From Clostridiales bacterium (GTDB lineage Bacteria; Bacillota; Clostridia; Lachnospirales; Lachnospiraceae): DNA of 64,000 nt. A program made the position numbers and the translations under genes. The notes beneath the pieces were generated by a model. That model made no database searches, was not told where the DNA came from, and saw only the letters and a list, made by a program, of their open reading frames with translations. The stretch's first letter is position 1, and every line of letters starts with the position of its first letter. Location: contig DUNO01000050.1 of assembly GCA_012839295.1 (NCBI GenBank), positions 62,001-126,000 of the forward strand, read 5' to 3'. Shown here one piece after another: positions 350 to 16,924 of the stretch.

Positions 350-893
350 GAACGTCGTATTGATTGGGATGCCCGGTGCGGGTAAGAGTACGGTTGGAGT
401 AATTTTAGCGAAGGTGTTGGGCTATCGCTTTATTGATTCGGATTTATTGATCCAGGAGCAGGAGAAATGCCTGTTGAAGGATATTATTGAACGGGATGGG
501 CTTGAAGGGCTCATCCGGATTGAAGAGCAGGTAAATTTTGAAATTGCGGTGGAGAATTCTGTGATTGCTACAGGCGGCAGCGTAATTTACGGCGCGAAAG
601 CGATGGAGCACCTGCGGGAGATTGGCACCGTGGTCTATATACAGCTCAGCTATAAGACAATTAATAACCGCCTGGGCAATATTAAGCAAAGAGGTGTGGT
701 ATTCCGCGACGGGCAGACGTTAAAGGATCTTTATGAGGAACGCTGCCCCCTCTATGAAAAATATGCCCATATCATCGTGGATGCTGAGAAGCTGGGCATG
801 GAAGAAGTGATGGAAAAGATATTATCGGAACTAAATACATGTTCCGATAATCGGGATGCACGGCGCAGGTACAGCGCCTTTTATGAGAAGTAA
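345..893 (+). CDS. aroK: Shikimate kinase with a repeat-derived C-terminal tail
   Basis: Phosphorylates shikimate with ATP in the chorismate pathway, in the cytosol. The Walker A loop GMPGAGKST is at the N-terminus, followed by the shikimate-site region DSDLLI and the conserved glycine motif ATGGSV. I place the start at ATG 345 because family members begin a few residues before the P-loop. In-frame TTG 315 and ATGs at 324 and 333 lie inside an upstream repeat, and no candidate has a strong ribosome site. The normal fold should end near KILSEL. The last ~20 residues are translated from repeat copy A (819 onward), which also supplies the stop codon. An arginine-rich stretch in this tail (DARRRYSAF) comes from the repeat. 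Confidence 0.85.
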   Translation: MGNVVLIGMPGAGKSTVGVILAKVLGYRFIDSDLLIQEQEKCLLKDIIERDGLEGLIRIEEQVNFEIAVENSVIATGGSVIYGAKAMEHLREIGTVVYIQLSYKTINNRLGNIKQRGVVFRDGQTLKDLYEERCPLYEKYAHIIVDAEKLGMEEVMEKILSELNTCSDNRDARRRYSAFYEK

Positions 894-960
894 AGTGCAA
901 CTTCTCATAACCTATATTATCGGAACTAAATACATGTTCCGTTAACCAAGATGCATGACA
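819..960 (+). repeat. Multi-hairpin repeat, copy A (one unit plus a truncated second unit)
   Basis: In order this holds hairpin 1 (ATCGGAAC with GTTCCGAT), hairpin 2 (GGCGC-aggtaca-GCGCC), a TTTT linker, and hairpin 3 (TTATGAGAAGT with ACTTCTCATAA). A 28-base block at 819-846 then recurs exactly at 914-941 and begins a degenerate second unit, so the period is 95 bp. Related copies are at 13580-13690, 14721-14828 and 16806-16924. The first part is translated as the C-terminus of aroK. Confidence 0.85.
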
Positions 961-971
961 TAAAACAAGCA

Positions 972-1466
972 TTATCTGTCCCAGTCAGTGCCAGCTGCCA
1001 ATAGCTCCACGAATTTTTCCAGGCCGTTTTGATCCGCATGGTCAAAACGGCCTAAGCTTGGGCTGTCGATATCAAGGACACCGACAATCCGGCTCCCGGC
1101 GTGTATTGGTACTACAATCTCAGAACGGGAAGCACTGTCACAGGCGATATGGCCTGGAAATTCATGTACATCCGGTACTAATTGTGTTTTGTCCTCAGAG
1201 ACGGCTGTGCCGCATACGCCTTTGCCAATGGGGATATGGATGCAGGCGGGCTTGCCTTGGAAGGGGCCGAGTAATAATTCCCCATTCCGGATCAGGTAGA
1301 AGCCGGCCCAGTTGATATCCTTCAGGGCTCCGGCAAGCAGGGCTGAGGCATTGCTTAAATTTGGAATTAGAAAGGTTTCATTTTCTAACAGGGACTTAAG
1401 CTGGCTATGTAATAGCTGATAGAATTCTGTTTTTTCTTCCGGGTATATCAATAATGTTTCGTACAT
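972..1466 (-). CDS. msrC: Free methionine-(R)-sulfoxide reductase (GAF-domain, fRMsr)
   Basis: Reduces free methionine-R-sulfoxide in the cytosol using thioredoxin-type reductant. It is a single GAF domain of 164 residues with the three family cysteines, in ACIHIPIGKGVCG (two) and HIACD (one), followed by SEIVVPI and GVLDIDS. The start is ATG 1466, which has AAGGAG six bases upstream; a TTG seven codons earlier lies inside that ribosome site. It is the last gene of a three-gene reverse operon, 10 bp after the DUF3006 gene. The gene symbol is by family; yebR is also used. Confidence 0.9.
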   Translation of the reverse strand: MYETLLIYPEEKTEFYQLLHSQLKSLLENETFLIPNLSNASALLAGALKDINWAGFYLIRNGELLLGPFQGKPACIHIPIGKGVCGTAVSEDKTQLVPDVHEFPGHIACDSASRSEIVVPIHAGSRIVGVLDIDSPSLGRFDHADQNGLEKFVELLAAGTDWDR

Positions 1467-1476
1467 TGTGATCTCC

Positions 1477-1698
1477 TTAACCTGCAAATAGGCGGTTCAT
1501 TTTCTTGCGGATCCGGTCTTCCAGTTTTTTTGTGGTAGTGGAATCCTCGCGGTACATTCCGTCCGAACCCTGTATCAGGCAATCCCCCTCTTTTGCCTCC
1601 AAAGGTAGTTTGTACTTAGGAACTTTGACGGTGGTCTTATCTTCAAGTTCACATATGGCATAACTGCCCTCAAATCGGTCAATGATCAGTTTTTTCAT
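1477..1698 (-). CDS. DUF3006 domain protein
   Basis: A 73-residue protein beginning MKKLIIDRFEGSYAICELED, typical of the small beta-rich DUF3006 family, with a basic C-terminus (KKLEDRIRKKMNRLF). Its biochemical role is unknown. In Clostridia it is commonly encoded beside ComEC-like metallo-beta-lactamase proteins, and here it follows one by 16 bp on the same strand, so the two may act together. Confidence 0.8.
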   Translation of the reverse strand: MKKLIIDRFEGSYAICELEDKTTVKVPKYKLPLEAKEGDCLIQGSDGMYREDSTTTKKLEDRIRKKMNRLFAG

Positions 1699-1714
1699 GA
1701 AAAGCCTCCAAACA

Positions 1715-2626
1715 TCAGTCTTCTAAATCTTCGTCCGTTATATCATAATCTTTTGTATTCACGGATATATTTTTACCATTTGAGGTGAACACTATGGTTC
1801 CCTGCATATCGGTGCGGTAGAGCTTGACGCCCTGCTCTTTTATCCTGCGTAATGTTTCCTCCTTGGGATGGCCGTAATCGTTGTTGGTGCCAACGCAGAT
1901 GACGGCATAAGTGGGATTTACCGCGGCTAGGAAATCCCTGCTGGTACTGGATTCCGAGCCATGGTGCCCGATCTTCAGTACATCGGCCGACAGGTCAAAG
2001 GCTCCTGCCAGCATGTCTATCTCAGCCGGTTTTTCCGCATCGCCTGTGAATAGGAAAGAATTTTTTCCGAAGTTTAGTTTGATCACCAGGCTGTTATCGT
2101 TCATGTCGTCATAGGGGCTGGCCGGAGACAGTATGGTAAAGGTCGCGTCTCCAAAGCTGTATTGGTCTCCCACTTCAGTTTTCGTGATTTTTAAATTCTT
2201 TTTATCTAAAGTGTCCAATACTTCCTCAAAGGTGGCCGTATTGTTTGCAACGTCCGGCAATAATACTTTGTCTACCGGGAATGAATTTAGTACATCGTCT
2301 AATCCTCCAATATGGTCACTGTGGGGATGAGTTCCGACGAGATAATCGAGCTTTTGGATGTTCTGCAATTGTAGATAATTTACAACATCAATGCCTTTAT
2401 CATTTTCACCGGCGTCAATCAGCATTGCAGAGTCTTTTGTCTCGATTAAAATGGAATCACCCTGGCCGACATCGATAAAATGAACCTCAATTACCCCCGA
2501 TGGAAGGGATGTGGATGAGGTCTCTTTATCCCTTGCGGAACCATATTGATTCATTATGAGTACAAATACAATTAAGAGTGTCACAACAACTGTGCGTAAT
2601 GATTTGTAATTTTTACTTTTGCTCAT
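1715..2626 (-). CDS. ComEC-like metallo-beta-lactamase-fold hydrolase, membrane-anchored
   Basis: A 303-residue protein. Residues ~11-26 form one hydrophobic segment, either a signal anchor or an uncleaved signal peptide, so the catalytic domain should be outside the cell. The domain resembles the hydrolase part of ComEC (EVHFIDVGQGDSILI). The metal site THPHSDHIGG gives H100, H102, D104 and H105; later metal-site motifs are FTGDAE and KIGHHGS. ComEC-type domains can degrade DNA during uptake, but the ComEC membrane channel is absent, so the substrate is not known. Start ATG follows AAGGAG. First gene of the operon that continues into the DUF3006 protein and fRMsr. Confidence 0.85.
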   Translation of the reverse strand: MSKSKNYKSLRTVVVTLLIVFVLIMNQYGSARDKETSSTSLPSGVIEVHFIDVGQGDSILIETKDSAMLIDAGENDKGIDVVNYLQLQNIQKLDYLVGTHPHSDHIGGLDDVLNSFPVDKVLLPDVANNTATFEEVLDTLDKKNLKITKTEVGDQYSFGDATFTILSPASPYDDMNDNSLVIKLNFGKNSFLFTGDAEKPAEIDMLAGAFDLSADVLKIGHHGSESSTSRDFLAAVNPTYAVICVGTNNDYGHPKEETLRRIKEQGVKLYRTDMQGTIVFTSNGKNISVNTKDYDITDEDLED

Positions 2627-2645
2627 AGAATCGCTCCTTAATAAT

Positions 2646-2674
2646 ATTATAACGGGTTGTGCATGATATTACAA
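2646..2674 (-). promoter_or_regulatory. Sigma-A promoter of the MBL/DUF3006/fRMsr operon
   Basis: Read on the reverse strand: -35 TTGTAA (2674-2669), 17-bp spacer, -10 TATAAT (2651-2646), about 20 bp before the start codon at 2626. Confidence 0.65.
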
Positions 2675-2689
2675 TGAGTTTATTGGTTT

Positions 2690-2833
2690 ATGCACTTTTT
2701 GCACCAGGGATTGAGCCGTACCGGTTTATTGGGGGATGTTCCGCTGAAAAAGGGGAGGCTGGGATCCACAGTGGAGAAATACATCAATATTGTTGCGGAG
2801 GATGGCTTGATATATAATAGGAAGAAGGGTTGA
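2690..2833 (+). other. Possible 47-codon ORF or gene remnant
   Basis: An ATG-started frame runs to TGA at 2831-2833 in an otherwise gene-free stretch (2627-2978). The peptide looks protein-like (TGLLGDVPLKKGRLG, then EKYINIVAEDGLIYN). There is no ribosome site before the ATG and I recognise no family, so a decayed gene end is as likely as a real small protein. Confidence 0.2.
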
Positions 2834-2860
2834 GAGAAATAAAGTTAATGAATGAAGCAA

Positions 2861-2946
2861 GGACCGGGTCCGTGGCAGCATTTTCATGGCAATTTGTGCG
2901 GTATAAGGGTAATGCCCGTAAGGATTGGCATGGACATAAGCATGGA
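2861..2946 (+). repeat. Imperfect dispersed repeat, copy 2 (in front of thpR)
   Basis: Partner of 284-349. It starts with the palindrome GGACCGGGTCC and ends with GCATGGACATAAGCATGG, about 33 bp before the thpR start. Confidence 0.5.
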
Positions 2947-2978
2947 AAGCCGGGTGGAAGCAGGAGGAGGTTTGGAGA

Positions 2979-3545
2979 ATGAGGTTATTTACTGCAATCT
3001 TATTTAATGAAGAGGTGGAAAATTTACTATATGATTCTGTCCTAAGGCTAAAGGACTATTCGAAGGGTGGAACCTTTACAGCGAAGGAAAACCTGCATCT
3101 TACGGTAAATTTCATCGGCGAGACAAAACGGCTGGAGGAAGTGAAGGGAGCGATGCGCCGGGCGGTAGAAAAATCGAAGGTACACGGTTTTTTCTTGGAA
3201 TTAAAGGGGCTTGGCAGGTTCAAGCGGCGGGAAGGAGATATTTACTGGATTGGTGTGGAAAGGAATGAGACCCTGTGGAGGCTCCAGAAAGAATTGGTAA
3301 AGGAGTTAAAGGAGGCAGGCTTCTTTGATATTGATGATATGGCGTACACCCCCCATATGACCATCGGGAGGAGGATCCAGTTGAAGGAAACCTTCCGGCC
3401 AAGGGAATTCGGGGAAACCCTTCCGGTAATAGGGATGAGGGTGGCAAGGCTTAGCCTTATGAAGTCTGAGCGCATCAATGGGAAATTAATTTACACTGAA
3501 ATATTTTATGTGGATCTTGAAAAAGGGCTGCCGGACATGCCGTAG
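2979..3545 (+). CDS. thpR: RNA 2',3'-cyclic phosphodiesterase (2H phosphoesterase)
   Basis: Member of the LigT/ThpR 2H phosphoesterase family, which opens 2',3'-cyclic phosphates on RNA ends. Both catalytic H-x-T motifs are present, HLT at residues 40-42 (in HLTVNFIGE) and HMT at 126-128. Its 188 residues are the usual length. The start ATG follows a strong GGAGGAGG site. It sits alone between a repeat (2861-2946) and the repeat-rich uvrB leader. Confidence 0.9.
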   Translation: MRLFTAILFNEEVENLLYDSVLRLKDYSKGGTFTAKENLHLTVNFIGETKRLEEVKGAMRRAVEKSKVHGFFLELKGLGRFKRREGDIYWIGVERNETLWRLQKELVKELKEAGFFDIDDMAYTPHMTIGRRIQLKETFRPREFGETLPVIGMRVARLSLMKSERINGKLIYTEIFYVDLEKGLPDMP

Positions 3546-3572
3546 TGGATGACAATTGACCAGAAAAAATCA

Positions 3573-3585
3573 GAACAGACATTCG
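3573..3585 (+). promoter_or_regulatory. Possible LexA box before uvrB
   Basis: GAACAGACATTCG matches the Gram-positive SOS operator core GAAC-N4-GTTC with one mismatch. It lies 10 bp upstream of the -35 box of the promoter at 3595-3623. SOS control of uvrB is well known in Firmicutes; the site itself is tentative. Confidence 0.35.
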
Positions 3586-3594
3586 AATATTATA

Positions 3595-3623
3595 TTGATT
3601 TTAGATTTTGCATATGGTATAAT
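3595..3623 (+). promoter_or_regulatory. Sigma-A promoter of uvrB
   Basis: -35 TTGATT (3595-3600), 17-bp spacer, -10 TATAAT (3618-3623). The -10 lies in the left arm of the first palindrome of the repeat array below, so the array itself would be transcribed as a ~210-nt leader. Confidence 0.65.
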
Positions 3624-3800
3624 GTCGCCAGACATTATACCAGCGCCTAACATATTTAGTGCGCATCCTGGCATGAAGTTCCATACCATGGGAGCTTGCG
3701 GGCATGGTATAATATCGGCAGATATTATACCAGCGCAGACCAGCGGGAGTGCGCATCTTGGCGCAAAGCGCCATGCCATGGTGGTTTTTCATGGTATAAT
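3612..3800 (+). repeat. Two ~90-bp palindromic tandem repeats in the uvrB leader
   Basis: The block GGTATAAT occurs at 3616, 3706 and 3793 (periods 90 and 87). Each full unit contains a GGTATAAT...ATTATACC inverted repeat around a GTCGCCAGAC or ATCGGCAGAT core, then ACCAGCGC, GTGCGCATC, TGGC and a CCAT-CCATGG block. Differences in the palindrome arms are compensated (GTC with GAC, ATC with GAT), which suggests selection for pairing. The third GGTATAAT is a partial unit and could serve as a second -10 box nearer to uvrB. Confidence 0.8.
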
Positions 3801-3844
3801 AACAAGCGTCCCAATAAAGCAAGCAGCAAGGAGGGTATTTGTGT

Positions 3845-5833
3845 ATGGAGTTTAAATTATCGGCTGAGTTCGAGCCTACAGGCGACCAGCCGGAAGCAAT
3901 CAAAGCCTTAGTAGAAGGGTTCCAAAGTGGCAACCAATGCCAGACTTTGCTCGGTGTCACCGGTTCCGGTAAGACCTTTACAATGGCGAATGTGATCCAA
4001 CAGATACAGAAGCCAACTCTGATTATTGCACATAATAAGACCCTGGCGGCTCAGCTTTACGGCGAGTTTAAGGAATTCTTTCCGGAGAATGCGGTTGAGT
4101 ATTTTGTAAGCTATTACGACTATTACCAGCCGGAGGCTTATGTTCCTTCGACGGATACTTATATTGAGAAGGATTCCTCCATCAATGATGAGATTGATAA
4201 GCTCAGGCATTCGGCTACGGCATCCCTGGCAGAGCGGAAGGATGTCATCATCGTGGCCAGTGTTTCCTGCATCTATGGTTTGGGTAGTCCCATCGATTAC
4301 CAGAATATGACGCTGTCCCTCAGACCCGGTATGATGAAGGACAGGGATGATGTATTAAGGAAATTAATTGAGATCCAATATGACCGGAATGACATGGATT
4401 TCAAGCGGGGAACCTTCCGGGTACGGGGGGATGTAGTTGAGATATTCCCGGCGGCTTCCGGGGAATTGGCGGTACGGGTTGAATTTTTTGGTGACGAGGT
4501 AGAGAGGATCTTGGAGATCGATACCTTGACAGGCGAGATAAAGAGCAGCCTTGGGCATATTGTGATTTTTCCCGCCTCCCACTATGTTGTTTCCAAGGAT
4601 AAGCTGGAGGAAGCAATTAAGAATATTGAAGAAGAGTTAGAGGAACGGGTCCGTTATTTTAAAAGTGAGGACAAGCTTTTGGAAGCCCAGAGAATTTCTG
4701 AGCGGACGAATTTTGATATAGAGATGCTGAGGGAAACAGGGTTTTGTTCCGGTATCGAGAATTATTCCAGGCATTTGACAGGATTACCGGCTGGCTGCCC
4801 TCCCCATACCCTGATGGATTATTTTCCGGAGGATTTTTTGATTATAGTGGACGAGTCACATATCACCCTTCCGCAGGTCAGGGGAATGTATGCAGGGGAC
4901 AGATCCCGTAAAACTACTTTAGTGGAGTATGGGTTCCGTCTGCCGTCGGCTCTGGATAACCGGCCCCTTAATTTTCAGGAATTTGAAAGTAAGATCAGCC
5001 AGATCTTATTTGTATCCGCAACGCCCTCCACTTATGAAAGTGAGCATGAGCTGCTGCGTACGGAGCAGGTAATACGTCCTACCGGATTACTGGATCCGGA
5101 GGTTTCGGTGCGTCCGGTAACAGGTCAGGTGGACGACCTGCTGGGAGAGATCCGTAAGGAAGTGGATAAGAAGTATAAGGTTCTCGTTACGACCCTTACA
5201 AAGCGTATGGCGGAGGATCTGACGAATTATCTGAGGGAGGTTGGTATCCGGGTGAAGTATCTTCATTCCGATATTGATACCCTGGAGCGCTCGGAGATCA
5301 TCCGTGACATGCGGATGGATTTGTTTGATGTATTGGTGGGAATCAACCTGCTCCGTGAGGGGTTGGATATTCCCGAGGTTGGCCTGGTGGCCATCCTGGA
5401 TGCGGATAAGGAAGGCTTCCTGCGTTCCGAGACCTCATTGATCCAGACCATTGGCCGTGCTGCCCGTAATGCGGATGGCCGTGTTATTATGTATGCGGAT
5501 CATGAAACGGATTCCATGAGGAAGGCTCTTTCCGAGACGAACAGGAGAAGGCTGATCCAGCAGGCATACAATGAAGCCCATGGAATCACCCCTACGACCA
5601 TAAAGAAGAAGGTAAGGGATCTGATCAGTATTTCCAGGAAAGCGGAAGAAAGCATCAAGGATATGGAGAAGGATATGGAATCCATGTCCCGCGGGGAACT
5701 GGAAGCGCTGCTTAAAACAGTTACCCAGCAGATGCATACGGCTGCGGCTGAGCTGAACTTTGAACAGGCGGCAATACTCAGGGATAAGATGGTAGAACTG
5801 AAAAAGCAGCTCCTGGAGATTGGCAAAGGGTAA
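3845..5833 (+). CDS. uvrB: UvrABC excision repair, subunit B
   Basis: DNA damage verification helicase of nucleotide excision repair. It accepts DNA from UvrA and presents it to UvrC. Visible motifs are the N-terminal MEFKL...[11 protein letters not shown], Walker A GVTGSGKT, the damage-probing hairpin region [16 protein letters not shown], the helicase signature QTIGRAARN, and a C-terminal UvrC/UvrA-binding coiled coil ([13 protein letters not shown]). 662 residues is the family length. Start ATG 3845 follows AAGGAGG; TTG 3839 and GTG 3841 are alternatives closer to that site. uvrA follows 204 bp downstream. Confidence 0.97.
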
Positions 5834-6037
5834 GCAGTAAGGAGACAGGTTGTGAAGGCCAGACAATAAAGATAGCTAATAAAGGATCAATGGTAATTAG
5901 TAAAAAAGCTCAATGGTAAATGATAGAAGACAAAGGAGCCGTTTCTGGAAGGCTTGTTTGTGGATGAAGGACATAAGGATTGAAGGAAAAGCTGATAAAT
6001 TTATTGTGATTCATAGTCACATAGGATAGGTGGAAAT

Positions 6038-8872
6038 ATGGCAGAAAAAAAGAATTATATAAAAATAAGAGGCGCAAAGGAAAATAATTTAAAGGACATT
6101 GAGCTGGACATCCCAAGGGATCAATTTGTCGTGCTGACCGGTCTCAGCGGTTCCGGAAAATCCTCCTTGGCCTTTGATACAATTTATGCAGAGGGGCAGA
6201 GAAGATATATGGAATCCTTATCTTCCTATGCAAGACAGTTCCTTGGGCAGATGGAGAAACCGAACGTGGAAAGCATTGAAGGGCTGCCTCCGGCCATTTC
6301 CATCGATCAGAAATCGACGAACCGGAATCCCCGTTCTACTGTAGGAACAGTGACGGAGATTTACGATTATTTTCGTTTGTTATACGCAAGGATCGGCATC
6401 CCCCATTGCCCTGAATGCGGGAAGGAGATCCGTAAGCAGACCGTCGACCAGATGGTGGATGAGATTATGTCCCTGCCCCAGGGCACAAGGATACAGCTGC
6501 TTGCTCCGGTGGTCAGGGGACGTAAGGGGGAGCATGTAAAGTTATTCGAGCAGGCGAAGCGCAGCGGCTATGTCAGGGTAAGGGTTGACGGCAGCCTCTA
6601 TGACCTTGGTGAAGAGATTAAGCTGGAAAAAAACAATAAACATAATATTGAAATCATCGTTGACCGTCTTGTAGTGAAAGAGGGGATCGAAAAGAGGCTT
6701 TCCGATTCCATTGAAAGTGTACTTAAATTGGCGGAAGGGCTGCTTTATGTGGATGTGATCGAAGGGGAGCAGCTGACCTTTAGCCAGAATTTTGCCTGCC
6801 CGGACTGTGGGATCAGCATTGACGAGATAGAGCCCAGGGTATTCTCCTTTAATAACCCCTTTGGCGCCTGCCCGGAATGCCACGGGATAGGTATTAAGAT
6901 GGAGTTTGATGAGGCCCTTTTGGTACCTGATAAGGACAAGAGCATTATTGATGGTGCTATTGCGGCTCCCGGCTGGCAGTCGGTTGTCGACAAGGGAAGC
7001 TATAGCAGATGTATTATGGAGGCTCTTGCCAAAGAGTATAAATTTGATTTGAGCACGCCCTATAACCAATTATCCGAGGAAGCAAAGCGCATATTTATCT
7101 ATGGAACCGATGGAAAGACGGTGAAGGTACATTACCGGGGACAGAGGGGTGTAGGTGTCTATGATGTTGCTTTTGAAGGACTGATCCGAAATGTTGAGAG
7201 ACGTTACCGGGAGACGGCTTCCGAGACGATAAAGCAGGAATATGAGACCTTCATGAGGACGACCCCCTGCAAGGAATGCGGCGGCCGGCGTTTGAAGAAG
7301 GAATCCCTTGCAGTTACTGTCGGTGATAAAAATATCTCCGAGGTAACGGATTATTCCATCCGTGATTTGGGGAAGTTCATGAATGAGCTTCAGCTTACCC
7401 CCATGCAGCTTAAGATTGGTGAGCTTGTGCTGAAGGAAATCAAAGCGAGAATTAATTTTTTAATGGATGTAGGCTTGGATTACCTGACCCTGGCAAGGGC
7501 TACCGGCAGCTTATCCGGCGGTGAATCCCAGAGAATCAGGCTGGCGACACAGATCGGTTCCGGTTTGGTAGGGGTAGCTTATATCCTGGATGAGCCAAGC
7601 ATCGGTCTCCACCAAAGGGATAATGATAAGCTCCTAAAGACATTAAAGAACCTTAAGGATTTGGGGAATACCCTGATCGTGGTGGAGCATGATGAGGATA
7701 CCATGTTTGCGGCGGACTATATCGTTGATATCGGGCCTGGAGCCGGTGAACACGGAGGAAAAGTAGTAGCCAAGGGTACAGCAAAGCAGATTATGAGGGT
7801 GAAGGAGTCCATTACCGGAGCCTACCTAAGCGGAAGGATCAAAATCCCTGTTCCTAAGGAGCGGCGTCAGCCGACGGGCTATCTGTCCATCCGCGGTGCC
7901 AGCGAGAATAACCTAAAGAATGTGGACGTGGATATTCCTTTGGGCATCATGACCTGTGTAACAGGTGTATCCGGTTCCGGCAAGAGCTCCCTGGTTACTG
8001 AGATTTTATATAAGAGGCTGGCAAGGGATTTAAACCGCGCCCGTGAAATTCCAGGCAAGCATGCTGAGATGATTGGAATTGAGCAGCTGGACAAGGTAAT
8101 TAATATTGACCAGTCTCCTATCGGCAGAACTCCAAGGTCAAATCCGGCTACTTATACCGGTGTGTTTGACCAGATCAGGGATCTGTTTGCATCCACCCAG
8201 GATGCCAAGATGAGGGGCTATGGAAAGGGCCGTTTTAGCTTTAATGTAAAGGGAGGACGCTGCGAGGCCTGCAGCGGTGACGGTATCCTGAAGATTGAGA
8301 TGAATTTCCTGCCGGATATCTATGTGCCCTGTGAAGTATGCGGGGGCAAGAGATATAACCGTGAGACCCTGGAAGTCCGTTATAAAGGAAAGAACATTTA
8401 TGATGTTCTGGACATGACAATAGAAGAAGCGGTAAAATTCTTTGAAAACGTGCCCTCCATTAAGAGGAAGATAGAGACCTTAAATGATGTAGGATTATCC
8501 TACCTCAGGTTAGGACATCCCTCGACGTCCCTTTCCGGTGGCGAGGCGCAGAGGATCAAGCTGGCGACAGAGTTAAGCAAACGGAGCACCGGTAAGACGA
8601 TTTATATTCTGGATGAACCGACGACGGGATTGCATTTTGCAGATGTGCATAAATTAATTGAGATCATGAAGCGTTTTTCCGATGCGGGAAATACAGTAGT
8701 AGTAATCGAACATAACCTGGACGTGATAAAGACGGCGGATTATATCATAGATATCGGGCCGGAAGGCGGAGATAAGGGCGGCACCATAATTGCGCAGGGA
8801 ACCCCGGAGGAAGTGGCGGATAATCCTGTTTCCTACACAGGTGAATATATTAAGAAGTATTTGGAGCATTAG
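6038..8872 (+). CDS. uvrA: UvrABC excision repair, subunit A
   Basis: Dimeric ABC-type ATPase that finds bulky DNA lesions and loads UvrB. Two ATPase modules are visible, with Walker [10 protein letters not shown] near residue 35 and GVSGSGKSS near 645, and signatures LSGGESQR and LSGGEAQR. Zinc-finger cysteines are in CPDCG...CPECHG, CKECGG, and CEACSG...CEVCGG. 944 residues, normal length. Ribosome site AGGTGG before ATG. The gap from uvrB is 204 bp, with no clear terminator. Confidence 0.97.
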
Positions 8873-10587: not shown

Positions 10588-10616
10588 TTGATAAAAATTC
10601 GGAAAGGTCATATAAT
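10588..10616 (+). promoter_or_regulatory. Sigma-A promoter of ulaC with upstream GTTC/GAAC sites
   Basis: -35 TTGATA (10588-10593), 17-bp spacer, -10 TATAAT (10611-10616). Just upstream, between about 10530 and 10570, are ATGTTCG, ATGTTCAATA and AGAACAAAT, which resemble the ATGAAC half-sites found at other ula promoters. The transcript would carry a ~160-nt leader. Confidence 0.7.
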
Positions 10617-10736
10617 ATTCCTGTTCCCTTATTGTAAAGCTGCTTTGTTTCTTGCGAAATAAAGTTTAAGCAATTTTGAGGTAAATAGGAAAATAAGTAG
10701 GCAGATCGGATTTTATTAAGTTGTATGAACCAGATG

Positions 10737-10778
10737 TTAGGAGGAAAAATCCTCTTAACCAAAAGCGTGTTAGGAGGA
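10737..10778 (+). promoter_or_regulatory. Duplicated Shine-Dalgarno with shared anti-SD before ulaC
   Basis: TTAGGAGGA occurs at 10737-10745 and again at 10770-10778, where it is the ulaC ribosome site. Between them, TCCTCTTAA (10750-10758) can pair with either copy, with one G-U pair. Pairing with the first copy leaves the real site free; pairing with the second hides it. This is the layout of a two-state translational switch, but no ligand or factor is indicated. Confidence 0.45.
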
Positions 10779-10783
10779 TTATT

Positions 10784-11239
10784 ATGTTAATAAAAGAGCT
10801 TGTTGATAAAGGACATGTTTGTTTTCAGCAACACTTTGATACTTGGGAAGCGGCAATTGAAGCTTCCTGCCAGCCGTTGATTTCAGACCATTCTATCGAT
10901 AAAGAATATATAGATGCCATTATTGAATGCGTAAAAAAATATGGTCCCTATATTGTTCTGGCTCCTAATATTGCAATGCCACATTCTCAGGAAGGGGCTG
11001 TGGGTGTGAATGATACGGCAATCAGTTTTATGAAGGTTGAGGAACCGGTGCATTTTGAAGAAGGCAATCCGGAGAAAGACGCAAAATTATTTTTTGTATT
11101 GGCATCCATTGATCATGATATTCACTTGCAGAATATGGAGAAGCTCGCTTTGTTACTTTTAAATGAAGAATTAGTAGACGAGCTTCTTGAGGCAAAGACG
11201 GTAGAAGATTTGCTCAGGATTGACCAAAAATATTCATAG
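10784..11239 (+). CDS. ulaC: PTS ascorbate-type EIIA component
   Basis: Cytosolic EIIA of the ascorbate/galactitol class. It passes phosphate from HPr to EIIB. The phosphorylated histidine is H67 in APNIAMPHSQ, the standard PTS EIIA type-2 motif. 151 residues from ATG 10784, which follows AGGAGG; a longer in-frame start at 10721 lacks a ribosome site. It has its own promoter and terminator and so is a separate unit upstream of ulaA-ulaB. The ascorbate assignment rests on the adjacent UlaA-type EIIC, UlaB-type EIIB and ulaG/ulaE. Confidence 0.85.
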   Translation: MLIKELVDKGHVCFQQHFDTWEAAIEASCQPLISDHSIDKEYIDAIIECVKKYGPYIVLAPNIAMPHSQEGAVGVNDTAISFMKVEEPVHFEEGNPEKDAKLFFVLASIDHDIHLQNMEKLALLLLNEELVDELLEAKTVEDLLRIDQKYS

Positions 11240-11312
11240 CATTTTAAGCGGGATATAATAAACAGATATAATTAGATAGATATAGACAGATATATAAGGA
11301 CATAACCTGTTA

Positions 11313-11358
11313 AGCATCATAATCTTCTTTGACAAAGATTATGATGCTGTTTTATTTT
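11313..11358 (+). terminator. Intrinsic terminator of ulaC
   Basis: AGCATCATAATCTT (11313-11326) pairs perfectly with AAGATTATGATGCT (11335-11348) around an 8-nt loop and is followed by GTTTTATTTT. Confidence 0.9.
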
Positions 11359-11418
11359 GCATGAAAGTAAGGGAACATAATAAGTGTACCTGTGTATCTG
11401 GGAAATATGTAGGATATC

Positions 11419-11446
11419 CTGCATTATTTACCATAGAATAATGCAG
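11419..11446 (+). other. Hairpin in the ulaC-ulaA gap
   Basis: CTGCATTATT and AATAATGCAG form a 10-bp stem around an 8-nt loop. No T-run follows. The gene-free stretch 11240-11757 otherwise holds the ulaC terminator, an operator palindrome and the ulaA promoter. Confidence 0.5.
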
Positions 11447-11465
11447 CTGGAATTAGAATAAATAA

Positions 11466-11480
11466 ATGAACAAAGTTCAT
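11466..11480 (+). promoter_or_regulatory. Palindromic operator ATGAACAAAGTTCAT before ulaA
   Basis: A perfect 15-bp palindrome (ATGAAC-AAA-GTTCAT), 102 bp upstream of the ulaA -35 box. The same half-site occurs at the ulaG, ptsH and ulaR promoters (18016-18061, 17001-17006, 17851-17865). The simplest reading is the binding site of the DeoR-family regulator encoded at 17023-17805. Confidence 0.5.
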
Positions 11481-11581
11481 AAAAAAGAGATTAAATTGCA
11501 TTAAATCAAATTTAAACAAGTGACACATGCAAAAAATCCATCAAATGATCGTATAGATATGATATTATTCATATAATAGTA

Positions 11582-11610
11582 TTGACATAAACATATAAGG
11601 ACATTATAAT
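11582..11610 (+). promoter_or_regulatory. Consensus sigma-A promoter of ulaA-ulaB
   Basis: -35 TTGACA (11582-11587), exact 17-bp spacer, -10 TATAAT (11605-11610): a perfect consensus. Such a strong core promoter suggests control by repression. The leader to the start codon is ~140 nt. Confidence 0.85.
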
Positions 11611-11757
11611 GAATTTATAAATATAATATAAATAAAAAGTAAACATAATTAATGAGTATTATGAAAAGGGGGAGTTTCCATTAGGGAAAGTTACGAAGGG
11701 ACTAGGTATTTATAAGGTTGTATTGGTAGAAATCTATAAAAATCTTTAGGAGAAAGA

Positions 11758-13251
11758 ATGGAGGGTAATATGGAAATTTTATTAAAGGTGTGGACTTATT
11801 TTGCAAGCAACATTTTAACGCAACCAGCATTCTTTATTGGTTTAATTGTTATTATCGGTTATCTTTTATTAAAGAAACCCTGGTATGATGTCCTGTCAGG
11901 TGGTGTAAAAGCAGTCTGTGGTTATATGATTTTAGCGGTCGGTTCCGGCGGCCTGGTCAATAACTTCCGTCCAATCCTTGTTGGTTTAAAGGATAGATTT
12001 AGCCTCGATGCTATGGTAATTGACCCATACTTTGGACAAAATGCAGTAACGGCAGGTGTGGAAGAGGTATTTGGCAAGACCTTTTCAAATGTAATGATTC
12101 TTTTGCTGATTGCCTTTATTGTTAATATATTATTGGTTCGTTTTAGAAAGGTTACCAAGCTCCGGGCTGTATTTACAACAGGTCATGTGCAGATACAACA
12201 GGCTTCAACCGCATTCTGGTTAATATTATTTGCATTACCGGTAATTGCGGCAAATGATACATTGATTTTAGTGGTGATGGCTATTATACTTGGTTTATAT
12301 TGGGCAGTAGGCAGTAACTTAACAGTACGTGCGACTCAGGAATTAACTGATGGGGGCGGCTTTGCAATAGCTCATCAGCAGATGTTTGCAATTGCAATTG
12401 CATCCGTATTAGCAGAAAAGATGGGACGAAGGAAGGGTAAGAAAGAATCTAAGAAATTGGAAGACATCCAGTTCCCTGGTTTCCTGTCTATCTTCAATGA
12501 AAATATGGTTGCAACATCCATCCTTATGTTCATTTTCTTTGGAATAATTTTATTGATCTTAGGAAAGGACTATTTGGTTCAAGCTGAGTTTATGAAGGAT
12601 ACAGATAGTTTTCTTTTCTACATACTTAAAACTTGCCTCAATTTCTCGGTATACCTGGCAATATTGCAGTTGGGTATAAGAACCTTCGTAACGGAGTTGA
12701 CCCAATCCTTCCATGGTATATCCCAGAAATTGTTACCGGGTGCGGTTCCAGGTGTGGACTGTGCGGTGGCCTATGGCTTTGGTTCCCCAAATGCTGTTAC
12801 GGTTGGTTTCTTAGCTGGTGCTACAGGACAGTTTCTTGCAATAATTGCTTTAATATTATTAAAGAGTCCGGTACTTGTAATTGCAGGATTTGTTCCGGTT
12901 TTCTTTGACAATGCAACGATTGCTGTATTTGCTAATAATAAGGGCGGCATAAAGGCAGCATTACTATTTCCATTCCTTGCAGGGCTTTGCCAGGTATTTG
13001 GTTCCGCTATCATTGCCAGCTGGGTAGGTATGGCAGCATATGGCGGTTACTTAGGAATGTGGGACTGGGCAGTTGTATGGCCTGTATTTACAGTGGTTAT
13101 GAAATACTTAAGCTACTTTGGTATAGCCATAGTTGTAATTGCATTAATTGCAATTCCTCAATTACAGTATTTGAAAGACAAGAAGCATTACTTCCTCATT
13201 ACAGATGATTACGAAGAATATAAGAAAGTCAAAGCAGAAGAAGCTAATTAA
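11758..13251 (+). CDS. ulaA: PTS ascorbate-specific EIIC permease
   Basis: Membrane permease of the ascorbate PTS (UlaA/SgaT family), which takes up L-ascorbate and phosphorylates it together with UlaB and UlaC. 497 residues with about ten or more hydrophobic segments. Typical stretches are KPWYDVLSGGVKAVCGYMIL, GVEEVFGKTFSNVMILLL, GHVQIQQASTAF and GLCQVFGSAIIASWVGMAAYGGYLGMWDW. Start ATG 11758 follows AGGAGA; ATG 11770 after GGAGGG is an alternative. ulaB follows 35 bp downstream in the same unit. Confidence 0.93.
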   Translation: MEGNMEILLKVWTYFASNILTQPAFFIGLIVIIGYLLLKKPWYDVLSGGVKAVCGYMILAVGSGGLVNNFRPILVGLKDRFSLDAMVIDPYFGQNAVTAGVEEVFGKTFSNVMILLLIAFIVNILLVRFRKVTKLRAVFTTGHVQIQQASTAFWLILFALPVIAANDTLILVVMAIILGLYWAVGSNLTVRATQELTDGGGFAIAHQQMFAIAIASVLAEKMGRRKGKKESKKLEDIQFPGFLSIFNENMVATSILMFIFFGIILLILGKDYLVQAEFMKDTDSFLFYILKTCLNFSVYLAILQLGIRTFVTELTQSFHGISQKLLPGAVPGVDCAVAYGFGSPNAVTVGFLAGATGQFLAIIALILLKSPVLVIAGFVPVFFDNATIAVFANNKGGIKAALLFPFLAGLCQVFGSAIIASWVGMAAYGGYLGMWDWAVVWPVFTVVMKYLSYFGIAIVVIALIAIPQLQYLKDKKHYFLITDDYEEYKKVKAEEAN

Positions 13252-13286
13252 CAGGACACAAAGTAATTTAATTAAGGAGTGAATAT

Positions 13287-13577
13287 ATGTTAAGCATAAT
13301 GGTCACATGTGCCAATGGCGCAGGAACAAGCTTGATGATGAAGATGACAGCGGAAAAGGTTGTTAAATCCCTGGGCTTAAAAGTAAGTAAATTGCATCAC
13401 TGTTCCTTAAGCGAGGGAAGAAGTGCGGCATCGCAATTTGATATTGTCTTCTGTCCGCTGATCTTTATATCAATGTTTAAAGATGCAGAGGCAAAGGGCG
13501 TAAAAGTAATTGGTTTAAAAAATGTTCTGTCCCAGGCCGAAATGGAGGAAAAGCTAAAAGAGGCTGGTATAGCATAA
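13287..13577 (+). CDS. ulaB: PTS ascorbate-type EIIB component
   Basis: Small cytosolic EIIB (96 residues) that carries phosphate on a cysteine and passes it to the sugar at the EIIC. The active cysteine is C8 in VTCANGAGTSLM, the hallmark P-loop of ascorbate/galactitol EIIB proteins. Ribosome site AAGGAG. Second gene of the ulaA unit. Its 3' side runs straight into repeat copy D, which may act as the transcript end. Confidence 0.93.
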   Translation: MLSIMVTCANGAGTSLMMKMTAEKVVKSLGLKVSKLHHCSLSEGRSAASQFDIVFCPLIFISMFKDAEAKGVKVIGLKNVLSQAEMEEKLKEAGIA

Positions 13578-13579
13578 GT

Positions 13580-13690
13580 CATCAGAGTTGCTTTTGCTTC
13601 TGATAAAAGGTGCCGATTTTGGGCCATGCGTTGCGGTTATCGGAACATGAATTTTTGTTCCTATAAATACATTATATAACATTAAGTTAC
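13580..13690 (-). repeat. Multi-hairpin repeat, copy D (degenerate, reverse orientation)
   Basis: On the reverse strand the order matches copy A: hairpin 1 (ATAGGAAC with GTTCCGAT), a GCATGGCC...GGCACC core in place of GGCGC...GCGCC, then TTTTATCAGAAG and a CTCTGAT partner. Hairpins 1 and 3 still pair, while hairpin 2 is weaker. It lies directly behind ulaB. Confidence 0.65.
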
Positions 13691-13757
13691 AAACAGGTGA
13701 CTGTAGAAGAGACTGTATCCCCCGGTTCAGTCTCTTTTACCATAAGGAGAATTGGCC

Positions 13758-14609
13758 ATGGAGGAAGAAATGGTATCCCTGGGCAGGAGAATAAAGCTAA
13801 TTGTCAGCGATATAGACGGAACCTTGCTGAATTCAAAAAGAGAAGTCAGCAAGGCTAGTATGGATGTGATTTGGAAATCGCGTGATGAGGGCATTATGTT
13901 TTCCATCTGTACAGGAAGAATTGCCACAATGACAGAATATTATACGGAAAGGTTACAAATTAAAACGCCGATTATAACTGCAAATGGTGCTGTGATTTGG
14001 GATTGTGTAAGGAAAAAATCTATATTTGATGTACCTATGGATACGAATGAAGTTATAGAGCTTCTGAAAATGTGCAAATCACTTAAGCTGGATTATAGCG
14101 CCCTAACCTTAGGGACTAGTTATTTTTCGGAAAATAGTCTTCGGTTAAACCGTTTTTTGGAATATAACCGGTTTGCAAGTGATAATGGAATGAGTGAAAT
14201 GAAACTGGAATTTTTTGACGAAGAACACCATTGTATGGATGGGTTAAAGGTTTATAAGGTTTTAATCTATGAGAAGGAATTGAAAAAACTAAAATTAATG
14301 CAGGATTATATTAATGAGCTTCCTAATACGGGATTTACTTCGTCTGAACCCGGGCTGATTGATGTGTCGGAAGCCCGGGTAAATAAAGGATATGGATTGA
14401 AGAAGTTGGCAGAGCATCTTGGGTTGAAAAAAGAAGAGATATGTGTATTTGGTGATTATGATAATGATATACCCATGCTTGAAAATGCCGGATTTCCGGT
14501 GGCGATGGGGAATAGTTGTGAAAATTTGAAGGAGCATGCAAGCCTGGTGACAAAAACAAATGATGAGGATGGCGTTGCCTGGGCGATCAGGCGTTATATA
14601 TTAGGTTGA
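13758..14609 (+). CDS. Cof-type HAD hydrolase (HAD-IIB sugar phosphatase)
   Basis: A 283-residue haloacid dehalogenase-like phosphatase. Motif I is VSDIDGTLL (nucleophile D18 and D20 from this start), motif II CTGR, and the C-terminal motifs are NKGYGLKKLAEHLG and FGDYDNDIPMLENAG. HAD-IIB proteins dephosphorylate sugar phosphates and FMN-type compounds; the substrate cannot be told from sequence. Its place between PTS genes and ptsI suggests relief of sugar-phosphate stress, as inference only. Start ATG 13758 after AAGGAGA. Confidence 0.85.
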   Translation: MEEEMVSLGRRIKLIVSDIDGTLLNSKREVSKASMDVIWKSRDEGIMFSICTGRIATMTEYYTERLQIKTPIITANGAVIWDCVRKKSIFDVPMDTNEVIELLKMCKSLKLDYSALTLGTSYFSENSLRLNRFLEYNRFASDNGMSEMKLEFFDEEHHCMDGLKVYKVLIYEKELKKLKLMQDYINELPNTGFTSSEPGLIDVSEARVNKGYGLKKLAEHLGLKKEEICVFGDYDNDIPMLENAGFPVAMGNSCENLKEHASLVTKTNDEDGVAWAIRRYILG

Positions 14610-14687
14610 CAAATTAATATTTAAATACATACGGCTGTATTATTGAAATCCATTATTCAAAGACTTACTATTTTTAAGAAAGATAGA

Positions 14688-14718
14688 TCAGGAGCTGCTG
14701 TAGTCCAGCAGCTCCTGA
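14688..14718. terminator. Hairpin terminator between convergent HAD and ptsI genes
   Basis: TCAGGAGCTGCTG and CAGCAGCTCCTGA make a perfect 13-bp stem with a 5-nt loop. The flanks are AT-rich but have no long T-run on the forward side, so it may act in either direction between the convergent genes. Confidence 0.6.
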
Positions 14719-14720
14719 TG

Positions 14721-14828
14721 CTTATATTATAGGAAGCAAATGCGGCTTCCTATAATCGGGATGCACGGCGCAGGAACAGCGCCTTTTATGAGAAGTTTGG
14801 AATATAACTTCTGATAACTTATATTATG
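14721..14828 (+). repeat. Multi-hairpin repeat, copy B
   Basis: CTTATATTAT occurs at both ends (14721 and 14818). Inside are hairpin 1 (TTATAGGAAGC with GCTTCCTATAA), the conserved core ATCGGGATGCAC, hairpin 2 (GGCGC-aggaaca-GCGCC), CTTTTATGAGAAGT, and an ACTTCT partner. Hairpin 1 has a different sequence from copies A and C yet pairs fully. The right end overlaps the last codons and stop of ptsI (reverse strand). Confidence 0.85.
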
Positions 14829-16504
14829 GATAGTTCTTTTTTTACTTCCTGGAGAGTATAGGCTGCCGCCGCTCTTTTGGCGCATTCCTTTGCTTTCTCG
14901 TAGGAAGAGTTACGGATAATGTTCTTGATGTTAGCGGTTTCTCCTGCGGCCATGCTGAATTCATCCAAACCGAGGCCAAGAAGAAGGGTGGTAGCTTTTT
15001 CGTCACCAGCGAATTCACCGCACATTCCGACCTCAATGTTTTCCGCATGGGCGGCATCGATAATGTGCTTAATACTCTGAACGACTGCGGGATGAAACGA
15101 GTCATACAGGGCAGAAATTTTCTTGTTTCCACGGTCAACTGCAAGGACATATTGGGTTAGGTCGTTGGTTCCAATGCTGAAGAAGTCGACATGTTTTGCA
15201 AAATTCGCGGCACATAGCACGGCGGCGGGGGTTTCAATCATAATTCCTACCTTGATATCTGGGTTGAATGCCAGACCCTCTGCCTCCAACTCGCATTTAC
15301 AGGCTGTTAGTATTTCATTTGCTTTATTTAATTCTTCCATCGATATAATCATAGGATACATGATTTTAACATTGCCAAAGGCGCTTGCGCGAAGGATTGC
15401 CCTAAGCTGTGCCTTAAAAACATCCTCCAGCTCCAATGAAATTCGGATTGCTCTCCAGCCTAAGAAAGGGTTTTCCTCAGTCTCAAATTTATAGTACGGA
15501 AGGGATTTGTCACCGCCGATGTCCAAGGTACGAATAATCAACTCGGAGCTGCATAAGGAAGCAGCTTCTTTATAGACCGTGAACTGTTCTTCCTCCGTGG
15601 GGAAATGGGAATTTTCCATATATAAAAATTCACTTCTAAAAAGGCCGATGCCATCGATATGATGTGTGGTTGCTTTCCTTACATCCTCGATATTACCCAC
15701 ATTTGCACATATTTTCACAGTTCGGCCATCGATAGTAGTAGCGGGCAAAAAGCTTGAGCGTTCTAATTCTTTTCGTTTGTTTACATAATCCTGCTTCAAT
15801 GATTCGTACCTGTGAATCGTAGAATCGTCGGGATTGATTATGATTTTTCCGGTGACTGCATCGAGAATAAGAAAATCATCATTATGTATGCTGGTTAATA
15901 AATCCGGAACACCTACTAAGGCAGGTAGTTCAAGATTACGTGCAATAATACATACGTGGCTGGTCACTCCACCGAGTTCCGTTAGAAAACCGAGGATGTA
16001 ATCCAGATTAAGCGATGAAGTGTCAGAGGGGGCTAAATCCTCAGCGATGAGAATCACTTTATCCTGGATGCTTTTTAAATCGGTTTGGCCGATTCCTTTT
16101 AGAAGCCTCATTAAACGATTACGAATGTCTTTTATGTCAGCACTTCGCTCTCTCATATATTCGTCTTCCATGGAATCAAAAATAGCACAGAATTCGGCTG
16201 CAGTCAGATCGAGGGCAACCTGAGCATTCTGTAGTTCGTTACGGATTCTATTTGTGACGCCGCCATATAATGAGATGTCCTTGACTAATTCTAAATGCGC
16301 AGTAAAAATATCTGATTTCTGGGCCAAGATTTCGATTTGCGAAGCGGCTTCCTTTACTGCATTATCATATTTCATGATTTCACTATCGATTTGATTGGCT
16401 GAGATTTCATAGTTTTCTGGGCTTAAATCTTGTTTTTGAAGCACATAAGCATTTCCCATGGCAATACCTTTGGAAGCGATTCTATCAACCGATAAAGTTT
16501 TCAT
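14819..16504 (-). CDS. ptsI: PTS enzyme I (phosphoenolpyruvate-protein phosphotransferase)
   Basis: Takes phosphate from PEP and gives it to HPr. The N-terminal HPr-binding domain is followed by the phosphohistidine loop GGVTSHVCIIARN (His ~183; most family members have A where C stands). PEP-domain motifs follow: GIGLFRSEFLYM, GTNDLTQYVLAVDR and the active-site MCGEFAGD. 561 residues from ATG 16504; an ATG five codons earlier overlaps the ptsH stop. ptsH lies 14 bp upstream, giving a ptsH-ptsI operon that points away from ulaG and the regulator gene. The stop lies within repeat copy B. Confidence 0.93.
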   Translation of the reverse strand: MKTLSVDRIASKGIAMGNAYVLQKQDLSPENYEISANQIDSEIMKYDNAVKEAASQIEILAQKSDIFTAHLELVKDISLYGGVTNRIRNELQNAQVALDLTAAEFCAIFDSMEDEYMRERSADIKDIRNRLMRLLKGIGQTDLKSIQDKVILIAEDLAPSDTSSLNLDYILGFLTELGGVTSHVCIIARNLELPALVGVPDLLTSIHNDDFLILDAVTGKIIINPDDSTIHRYESLKQDYVNKRKELERSSFLPATTIDGRTVKICANVGNIEDVRKATTHHIDGIGLFRSEFLYMENSHFPTEEEQFTVYKEAASLCSSELIIRTLDIGGDKSLPYYKFETEENPFLGWRAIRISLELEDVFKAQLRAILRASAFGNVKIMYPMIISMEELNKANEILTACKCELEAEGLAFNPDIKVGIMIETPAAVLCAANFAKHVDFFSIGTNDLTQYVLAVDRGNKKISALYDSFHPAVVQSIKHIIDAAHAENIEVGMCGEFAGDEKATTLLLGLGLDEFSMAAGETANIKNIIRNSSYEKAKECAKRAAAAYTLQEVKKELSII

Positions 16505-16518
16505 AAGCCCACCCCACA

Positions 16519-16782
16519 TTATTCGCCAAGACCACTGCTAATGGCATCAATGATTGTCTTTAAATCTTGTTCCTCGTTTTCGCCGTCGCATTCAACGACA
16601 ATCTCATCACCACATTTGATTCCGCCGCTCATTAATATAAGAACGCTTTTAGGATTAACACTTTTTTCTCCTTTTACCAATGTGATATTTGATTTGCAGG
16701 TTGCTGCGATTTTGGATAACTCACCAGCTGGTCTTAAATGAAGACCGGATTTGTTTGTGACTGTAATCTTTTGGCTTACCAT
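16519..16782 (-). CDS. ptsH: PTS phosphocarrier protein HPr
   Basis: An 87-residue HPr. Phosphorylation by enzyme I falls on H15 in SGLHLRPAG. The Firmicute regulatory site for HPr kinase is S46, present here as PKSVLILMSGGIKCG, so this HPr could also act in carbon catabolite control. Start ATG 16782 after AGGAGA; an in-frame ATG six codons upstream lacks a ribosome site. First gene of ptsH-ptsI. The leader contains repeat copy C. Confidence 0.93.
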   Translation of the reverse strand: MVSQKITVTNKSGLHLRPAGELSKIAATCKSNITLVKGEKSVNPKSVLILMSGGIKCGDEIVVECDGENEEQDLKTIIDAISSGLGE

Positions 16783-16805
16783 AATCAATTCTCCTATCAT
16801 AAATA

Positions 16806-16924
16806 TAAATTATCAGAAGTTACACATTACTTCTGGTAAAAGGCGCTGTACTTGCGCCGTGCAAAGTGTGCTCCTGGGGGCACACCAATTATCGGATCAT
16901 GATTTTGATCCCGATAATATAATG
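16806..16924 (-). repeat. Multi-hairpin repeat, copy C (in the ptsH leader)
   Basis: On the reverse strand it reads hairpin 1 (ATTATCGGGATC with GATCCGATAAT), an extra hairpin (GTGTGC with GCACAC), then GCACGGCGC-aagtaca-GCGCC, TTTTACCAGAAGT, and ACTTCTGATAA. The extra hairpin makes it ~20 bp longer than copies A and B. It lies between the ptsH promoter and the ptsH start, so it is transcribed in its standard orientation as leader RNA. Confidence 0.85.

Follow-up and report, generated by a model that had tools for sequence, protein, structure and literature searches.

Why does a short chain of hairpins recur within a single stretch of a Lachnospiraceae-type genome, with stems that differ in sequence from copy to copy and still pair? 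The window analysed here (the whole 64-kb stretch G000:C57:62001-126000, from which the model coordinates of the copies were converted) had been described in the initial annotation as holding four copies of a hairpin repeat, whose shape was attributed to selection on RNA or cruciform form. Folding and covariance-model matches both place four copies with a like hairpin chain where that annotation put them (Table 1), so its central claim stands; some details required correction. A shared core is present in exact form in copies A, C and D, and when up to three mismatches were allowed the core GCACGGCGCNNNNACAGCGCCTTTTA was found three times in the window, all of them exact, against 0.00 expected from 100 shuffles; copy B is diverged. 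The extra hairpin that had been assigned to copy C belongs to copy D, and the separate hairpin that precedes copy C (approximately 14687-14719) lies outside the repeat. The second unit said to begin after copy A is real, although truncated beyond its hairpin 1.

Table 1. Positions of the repeat copies and their parts in the window.
Feature	Position	Strand	Score and remarks
Copy A, complete unit	819-920 (model match 816-918)	+	115.5 bits, E 5.2e-20
Copy A, hairpin 1	821-851	+	
Copy A, hairpin 3	862-878	+	followed by TT
Copy A, hairpin 4	881-910	+	
Copy A, end repeat CCTATATTAT	911-920	+	
Second tandem unit after copy A	911 to ~960	+	hairpin 1, followed by decayed sequence; E 0.006 for the model match at 911-1002
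Copy B	13571-13671	-	diverged, imperfect hairpin 3; 49.8 bits, E 2.7e-6
Copy C, complete unit	14721-14825	+	111.5 bits, E 3.7e-19
Copy D, long form	16802-16923	-	hairpin 2 at 16866-16885; 61.1 bits, E 1.2e-8; ptsH leader

The unit of approximately 95-105 bp is built in the order TATATTAT, hairpin 1, an optional hairpin 2, hairpin 3, TTTTA, hairpin 4 and CTTATATTAT. The basic repeat has three different hairpins, with hairpin 2 as an optional extra that was seen by eye in 9 of 26 copies; a pattern search recovered it in 6 of 89 copies but missed clear cases such as copy D. ATATTAT direct repeats flank the hairpin chain of every unit, and the ends are sharp: a drop in conservation from more than 1 bit to approximately 0.1 takes four bases at the 5' end and only two at the 3' end. 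The unpaired letters of TTTTA and CTTATATTAT are kept across genera. Relative to shuffled sequences, the fold z-scores on the element strand are -5.8, -2.3, -4.9 and -5.3 for copies A to D, respectively, and on the opposite strand -7.4 for D and -1.1 for B.

A covariance model built from 12 copies gave 98 matches at E<=1e-3 in the 6.36-Mb draft genome, one of them an antisense overlap, and 28 occurrences of ACAGCGCCTTTTA were counted there against none for the reversed control; the repeat is thus far from confined to the four copies first noticed. Among the 98 matches there are 12 same-strand tandem neighbours, and one pair of copies is identical over 102 bases with different flanks. Counting the genome itself each time, matches were found in 9 of 34 genomes of the genus, in 3 of 150 of a family sample and, with the broader model R2, in at least 5 of 392 genomes of the order, a floor since 10 candidates were scored per genome. 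Carriers include G000, G127, G146, G172, G174, G178, G181, G183 and G510. No copy was found in the plasmid, phage and viral collections searched, and carriage of the repeat by phages or plasmids was therefore rejected.

Site, strand and end analyses used 89 copies (93 matches less four antisense overlaps). At none of 79 evaluable sites does a gene span a repeat, in regions that are 78% coding; copies instead adjoin gene ends and leaders. Genes were called with a simple in-house caller. Because its initial 'inside' test would overlook any gene that a repeat had disrupted, the flanking open frames were checked and the sites recounted with overlapping gene ends, which left the classes unchanged. 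At 2 of 88 sites the repeat has a long open frame running up to it on either side in the same strand; judged by eye, the left frame stops there and a different protein starts. In two cases, L188 and copy A, a gene end reaches more than 45 bases into the repeat; copy A encodes the stop and approximately the final 24 codons of a shikimate kinase ORF (315-893). Copy B lies between a PTS IIB gene, which ends at 13577, and a gene for a HAD hydrolase, whose ORF runs from 13752, and copy C lies between convergent HAD hydrolase and ptsI genes, with its CTTATATTAT end supplying the ptsI stop codon. A preference for one replication strand was rejected, the G-rich strand being used by 47 of 89 copies in G000 and 13 of 21 in G127. 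Avoidance of genes and indifference to strand are thus observed directly.

Comparison with relatives revealed filled and empty sites. The flanks of one site lie 167 bases apart in G127 and 4 apart in G183, where the repeat is absent, and at the place matching a second G127 site there are 4 bases in G184 and 36 in G185, figures that rest on BLAST rows. The site of copy C is empty in all five genomes that have the convergent HAD-ptsI pair, and one orthologous site carries two units in one genome and one in the other. These empty sites are comparisons between species, and at some of them the relative may have lost the repeat. Among orthologous length differences between G127 and G183, the pairs L248/L271, L257/L266 and L256/L264 (the last two examined by eye) did not show the repeat, and at site 1 of L242 an empty site could not be read. 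All of these comparisons were between species, and they revealed no fresh insertion.

The claim that structure is kept while sequence drifts is strongly upheld, and the finding that was to count against it in the initial annotation, a lack of additional copies and of covariation, did not materialise. Each of two alignments has two-sided changes at 24 of 27 stem pairs, a level that none of 500 shuffles attained; there are 203 two-sided cells against 56.1 in shuffles for the 93 matches of the genome itself, and 160 against 35.0 for 57 distinct matches from other genomes. These alignments (A3 and A4) were built on the structure of the model, a procedure that biases them towards pairs and towards G-T relative to A-C. 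When the copies were realigned without a structure and column pairs were ranked by APC-corrected mutual information, stem pairs took the top five places in the 57 rows from other genomes and in the pooled set of 119 rows, and the top three places in the 62 best copies of the genome itself. In diverged own copies the broken fraction of the stems is approximately 0.11 against 0.35 expected under free decay, a figure biased by detection with a structural model; such intactness would likewise be expected from a local function of each copy or from palindrome repair.

What was missed initially is that the repeat forms a dispersed, apparently mobile family, and this, together with the sharp ends and empty sites, suggests that the shape may be kept because spreading requires it, and not for a function of the individual copies where they lie. 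We consider it probable that the repeat is a family of small non-autonomous mobile DNA elements, with approximately 100 copies in this genome, that has spread as folded hairpin DNA. According to this model, units would insert between genes in both orientations and would at times be amplified as tandem arrays, moved by a putative enzyme that would act in trans and recognise the hairpins as folded DNA. The stems would covary because only foldable copies founded new copies, with resident copies presumably undergoing slow decay. Several observations weigh against this model: Y1 and Y2 mobilisers were not found in this genome, the plasmid, phage and viral collections yielded no copy, fresh insertions were not seen, and the genome's own copies have well-preserved stems and an excess of G-T over A-C.

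The proposal of selection on RNA or cruciform form is therefore supported in part, and of the two forms RNA is the less likely. A transcribed cis-acting RNA, retained at each locus to control genes by terminating or attenuating transcription or by stabilising mRNA, would be consistent with the strong RNA-type covariation, the TTTTA directly after hairpin 3 and the positions at gene ends and leaders, and in the genome itself G-T cells do outnumber A-C cells (93 against 63, p 0.02). RNA is expected to tolerate G-U far more than A-C. However, in other genomes A-C exceeds G-T (33 against 20), and the pooled counts are close (113 G-T, 96 A-C; counts from 86 of 93 own rows and 56 of 57 other rows); a control of 15 tRNAs, itself biased by ARAGORN, gave 29 G-T and no A-C. 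Relative to neighbouring genes at the 79 sites, 28 copies have the same and 24 the opposite orientation, 17 are in divergent and 10 in convergent settings; this lack of orientation and the near-equality of pooled G-T and A-C favour folded DNA over RNA. The repeat is, moreover, absent at the orthologous ptsI site, and none of 4227 Rfam families, by gathering score or E-value, matched at any copy (an E-value hit elsewhere was at chance level), so that a known RNA family was rejected. We thus regard control by a cis-acting RNA as very unlikely. Palindrome correction, in which template switching during replication or repair copies one arm onto the other so that the arms match without selection on structure, and tandem copying with gene conversion spreads the variants, is also unlikely. 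It would agree with the pooled G-T and A-C counts, with the excess of two-sided over one-sided changes and few wobble pairs, and with one well-kept orthologous pair that differs by three two-sided changes (G-C to T-A in hairpin 1; T-A to C-G and C-G to T-A in hairpin 3). It leaves unexplained the dispersal, the sharp ends and the conservation of unpaired letters across genera, and the change in place may instead be conversion, because GGCGT/ACGCC is present in one other G183 copy.

There is little probability that the copies are remnants of, or were carried along by, a Y1 HUH transposase that this genome has since lost, either as REP elements with their RAYT or as miniatures derived from IS200/IS605. 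Hairpins at both ends, fixed flanks and no target duplication are features of single-stranded DNA transposition, in an account that draws in part on PMC8266576, and are seen here. In 57 solitary copies, end 8-mers gave 288 matches against 282.7 in shuffles (988 of 5000 as high), and none of 1096 registers in 27 copies was convincing; target-site duplication as at MITE insertions was rejected on these tests. Three carriers hold Y1 matches, fragments included (G127 13, G178 3, G172 1), but six others, G000, G181, G174, G183 (86% complete), G146 (68% complete) and G510, hold none, yet the non-carriers G150, G151, G153 and G184 have 1, 3, 6 and 2. Y1 count does not track copy number. No Y1 transposase (PF01797) was found in G000, a 97.9% complete draft, against matches in 5 of 14 control genomes, nor any Y2 transposase (PF04986), for which none of 14 controls gave a match, so that this control is silent; both were rejected as resident mobilisers. 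Across 13 genomes PF04986 was found in three, the carriers G181 and G127 (a broken fragment) and the non-carrier G185. REP palindromes have an invariant tetranucleotide in front of them, usually GTAG (PMC8266576); GTAG lies inside 2 of 62 units here, and in 10 of 62 the outer 14-20 bases contain GTAG, CTAC, GGAG or CTCC. The absence of a constant tag and of a strand bias both stand against such an origin.

The preferred reading, of elements mobilised as folded DNA, places the repeat beside several known systems. It appears to be undescribed and may work like REPIN, BOX or MITE elements. No title or abstract describing it was found in a search of the open literature; PMC3733652 and PMC10969869 gave zero hits for the terms asked, and PMC2267715 and PMC8040213 present many families and candidate RNAs whose sequences lie outside the present comparison. 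REP/REPIN/BIME elements with RAYT are likewise numerous extragenic palindromes of high copy number with doublets and tandems, and spread in trans is proposed for both, but the present repeat has no constant tag, has three different hairpins and resides in a genome where Y1 was not found. The last point, and the lack of strand bias, also set it apart from IS200/IS605-derived miniatures, which it resembles in its hairpins near the ends and its lack of target duplication. BOX elements of Streptococcus pneumoniae are likewise short interspersed repeats that fold and are assembled from modules, of which the inner one can be missing or present more than once (PMC3049150); the likeness, which is one of architecture, extends to the optional inner module, whereas the hairpins differ, the hosts here are Lachnospiraceae-type genomes and whole units multiply. 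As in MITEs (RUP, ERIC and the like), the repeat is short, folded and intergenic, with AT-rich ends, and is missing at matching sites in relatives; unlike them it showed no target-site duplication in the tests above. Its end arms are loosely alike by eye (TTATNNGAAG), and no parent IS was found among the families sought, Y1 and Y2.

It is possible, though we advance it only tentatively, that the repeat represents a new class of mobile DNA in Lachnospiraceae, a folded hairpin chain that shows neither target duplication nor strand preference and owes its movement to some enzyme other than the Y1 and Y2 HUH transposases, its covariation reflecting selection for mobility and not RNA function. Strong RNA-like covariation can arise from a dispersed DNA repeat, which is a trap for searches for structured RNAs. 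A family with carriers, non-carriers, empty sites and two units against one at the same place provides material for understanding how hairpin repeats may spread without the usual Y1 enzyme.

The four repeat copies recognised in the window by the initial annotation are present where it had placed them, and the core that it had described as common to all four is exact in A, C and D, while B has diverged. The extra hairpin assigned to copy C belongs to copy D instead. The covariance model and search of the genome and its relatives that the annotation had proposed returned many further copies, with two-sided stem changes above those of shuffled alignments. In the own draft genome (6.36 Mb, 82 contigs) R1, a covariance model built from 12 copies, gave 122 matches at E<=1 and 98 at E<=1e-3 when 150 of 3961 first-look candidates were scored, with antisense overlap at one of the 98. 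The repeat occurs in 9 of the 34 genomes of the genus, at 96 copies in the own genome, 31 in G178, 18 in G181, 6 in G174, 3 in G172 and one in each of four others. A family sample of 150, searched with stricter filters than the genus, contained three matching genomes (the own genome; G127, 22 copies; G146, 9), and two of five genomes in the genus of G127 match, with 26 and 22 copies. Across the order at least 5 of 392 genomes match the broader model R2 with the best 10 candidates per genome scored, and all are of the same family. Searching the named genome collection with a generic pattern that fixes 21 bases gave 22 stretches, from 14 assemblies as counted by accession prefix, under titles naming Lachnospiraceae, Lachnoclostridium, Roseburia, Herbinix, Clostridiales, Clostridia, Eubacterium, Bacillota and one 'Bacterium D16-50'. 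No matches were found in the collections of viral contigs, phages and plasmids searched.

Window coordinates of the repeat copies and adjoining features, and anatomy of the complete unit
Feature	Window position	Strand	Sequence or remark
Copy A	816-918	+	
Copy B	13571-13671	-	
Copy C	14721-14825	+	
Copy D	16802-16923	-	
Shikimate kinase reading frame	315-893		
Overlap of this frame with copy A	819-893		
End repeat of copy C	14815-14824		CTTATATTAT; supplies the ptsI stop codon
T-box leader	34504-34817		RF00230, 114.4 bits; sole window Rfam match at gathering score
Unit, 5' end			ATATTAT
Unit, hairpin 1			arms e.g. ATTATCGGAAC ... GTTCCGATAAT
Unit, spacer, hairpin 1 to hairpin 3			CGGGATGCAC
Unit, hairpin 3			GGCGC, seven-base loop, GCGCC
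Unit, spacer, hairpin 3 to hairpin 4			TT
Unit, hairpin 4			arms TTATGAGAAGT ... ACTTCTCATAA
Unit, 3' end			CTTATATTAT

Conservation falls away within a few bases at either end of the unit. Of 26 distinct copies, 9 have an additional hairpin separating hairpin 1 from hairpin 3, counted by eye. Because hairpins 1 and 4 resemble each other (TTATNNGAAG arms), with loops that also match in the stretch L108, the unit may be one palindrome in two copies flanking hairpin 3. A lone palindrome preceding a copy in L178 (upstream of 3501) combines a hairpin 1 left arm with a hairpin 4 right arm, as would result if these two hairpins had recombined and hairpin 3 had been lost. One copy in G146 (L070 1501-1633) is a further modular variant, in which an extra hairpin 4-like palindrome adjoins hairpin 4. 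Of the 98 own matches, 12 are same-strand tandem neighbours, and eight of these have a spacing of 95-98 bp. Contig breaks fall within a copy or at its end in L186, L199, L229, L232, L233 and L213 and in G178:C21, perhaps where longer tandem arrays were collapsed by short-read assembly.

Pairing is maintained while the stems change. Paired cells make up 94.5% in the 93 matches of the own genome and 96.0% in a set of 57 distinct ones drawn from other genomes, members of the own genus included; two-sided changes occur at 24 of 27 pairs in each set, with 203 two-sided cells against 56.1 in shuffled alignments and 160 against 35.0, respectively. Sliding the partner column by 1-3 lowers pairing to 38-54%, and across genera the hairpin 3 stem reads GGCGC/GCGCC, GGTGC/GCACC or GGGGC/GCCCC. 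After structure-free re-alignment the top five mutual-information pairs were stem pairs both in the other genomes and in the pooled set, as were the top three in the 62 best copies of the own genome; further down the ranking, stem pairs were interspersed with neighbouring and non-stem pairs.

In the own genome broken pairs climb from 0.015 to 0.107 as divergence at unpaired sites reaches about 0.2, and stand at 0.051 in the most diverged bin, below the 0.34-0.35 expected in those bins from independent stem changes; in other genomes they lie within 0.019-0.054. One orthologous copy (L254/L260) differs between the species at three stem pairs changed on both sides, at one pair that is mismatched in one species only and at one wobble pair, and in another (L248/L271) pairing is, by eye, visibly lost in both species. 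Resident copies therefore decay, but slowly, with a possible part played by palindrome correction or by a use at the locus.

Comparisons of orthologous flanks suggest movement between sites. In G127 a decayed two-unit repeat immediately follows the apparent stop codon of a gene, and its flanks are 167 bases apart versus 4 in G183. A second two-unit site of G127 corresponds to 4 bases in G184 and 36 in G185 (BLAST) and to a decayed repeat without hairpins 3 and 4 in G183, and another orthologous site has two units in G127 versus one in G183. The convergent HAD and ptsI genes that flank copy C are kept as a pair in five genomes of the genus, none of which has a repeat match at that place; two of the five, G172 and G173, carry the repeat elsewhere. 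Two copies are identical across 102 bases with different flanks, and no target duplication was seen at the repeat ends in tests on 27 and 57 copies. Searches for Y1 transposases, which serve REP and IS200/IS605 elements, gave no match in the own genome or in the carriers G181, G174, G183, G146 and G510 (two incomplete); such enzymes are present in the carriers G127, G178 and G172 and also in the non-carriers G150, G151, G153 and G184. Y2 transposases matched in 3 of 13 genomes and were not found in the own genome.

Because a G-U pair formed by one strand corresponds to mismatched A and C in the complement, an RNA function predicts many more G-T than A-C cells. The counts were 93 versus 63 in the own genome (p 0.02), 20 versus 33 in other genomes (p 0.10) and 113 versus 96 pooled (p 0.27), from alignments that favour G-T. 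The opposite strand of copy D folds at least as strongly as the element strand. Relative to GC skew, 47 of 89 own copies and 13 of 21 in G127 lie on the G-rich strand, and own genes of at least 150 aa split 315 to 76. Among 88 sites, nine were at edges; at the remaining 79 no gene spans the repeat, which lies on the strand of both neighbours at 28, opposite to them at 24, and between divergent genes at 17 and convergent genes at 10. Only 2 of the 88 sites have same-strand open frames of at least 70 codons running up to the repeat on its left and on its right; there, by eye, the left frame terminates and a new protein starts. These site and strand data lend no support to a transcribed element, and the placement fits insertion into intergenic gaps in either direction.

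Some copies reach into coding sequence. Neighbouring genes in the window were assigned by Pfam to shikimate kinase, PTS IIB, a HAD hydrolase, PTS enzyme I and HPr. Roughly the final 24 codons of the shikimate kinase frame, as well as its stop, come from copy A; the Pfam SKI domain of this frame extends to residue 173 of 192. Copy C provides the ptsI stop codon, and several further sites show an overlap of 2-39 bases between the 3' end of the repeat and that of an opposing gene.

No description of this family was found in the literature by titles and shown abstracts, with subscription journals outside the search. The repeats work like REPIN, BOX and MITE repeats, but lack one tested defining feature of REP/REPIN and one of MITEs; the comparison with BOX is one of architecture. 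This family of structured interspersed repeats is best read as non-autonomous mobile DNA whose fold is what has been conserved.
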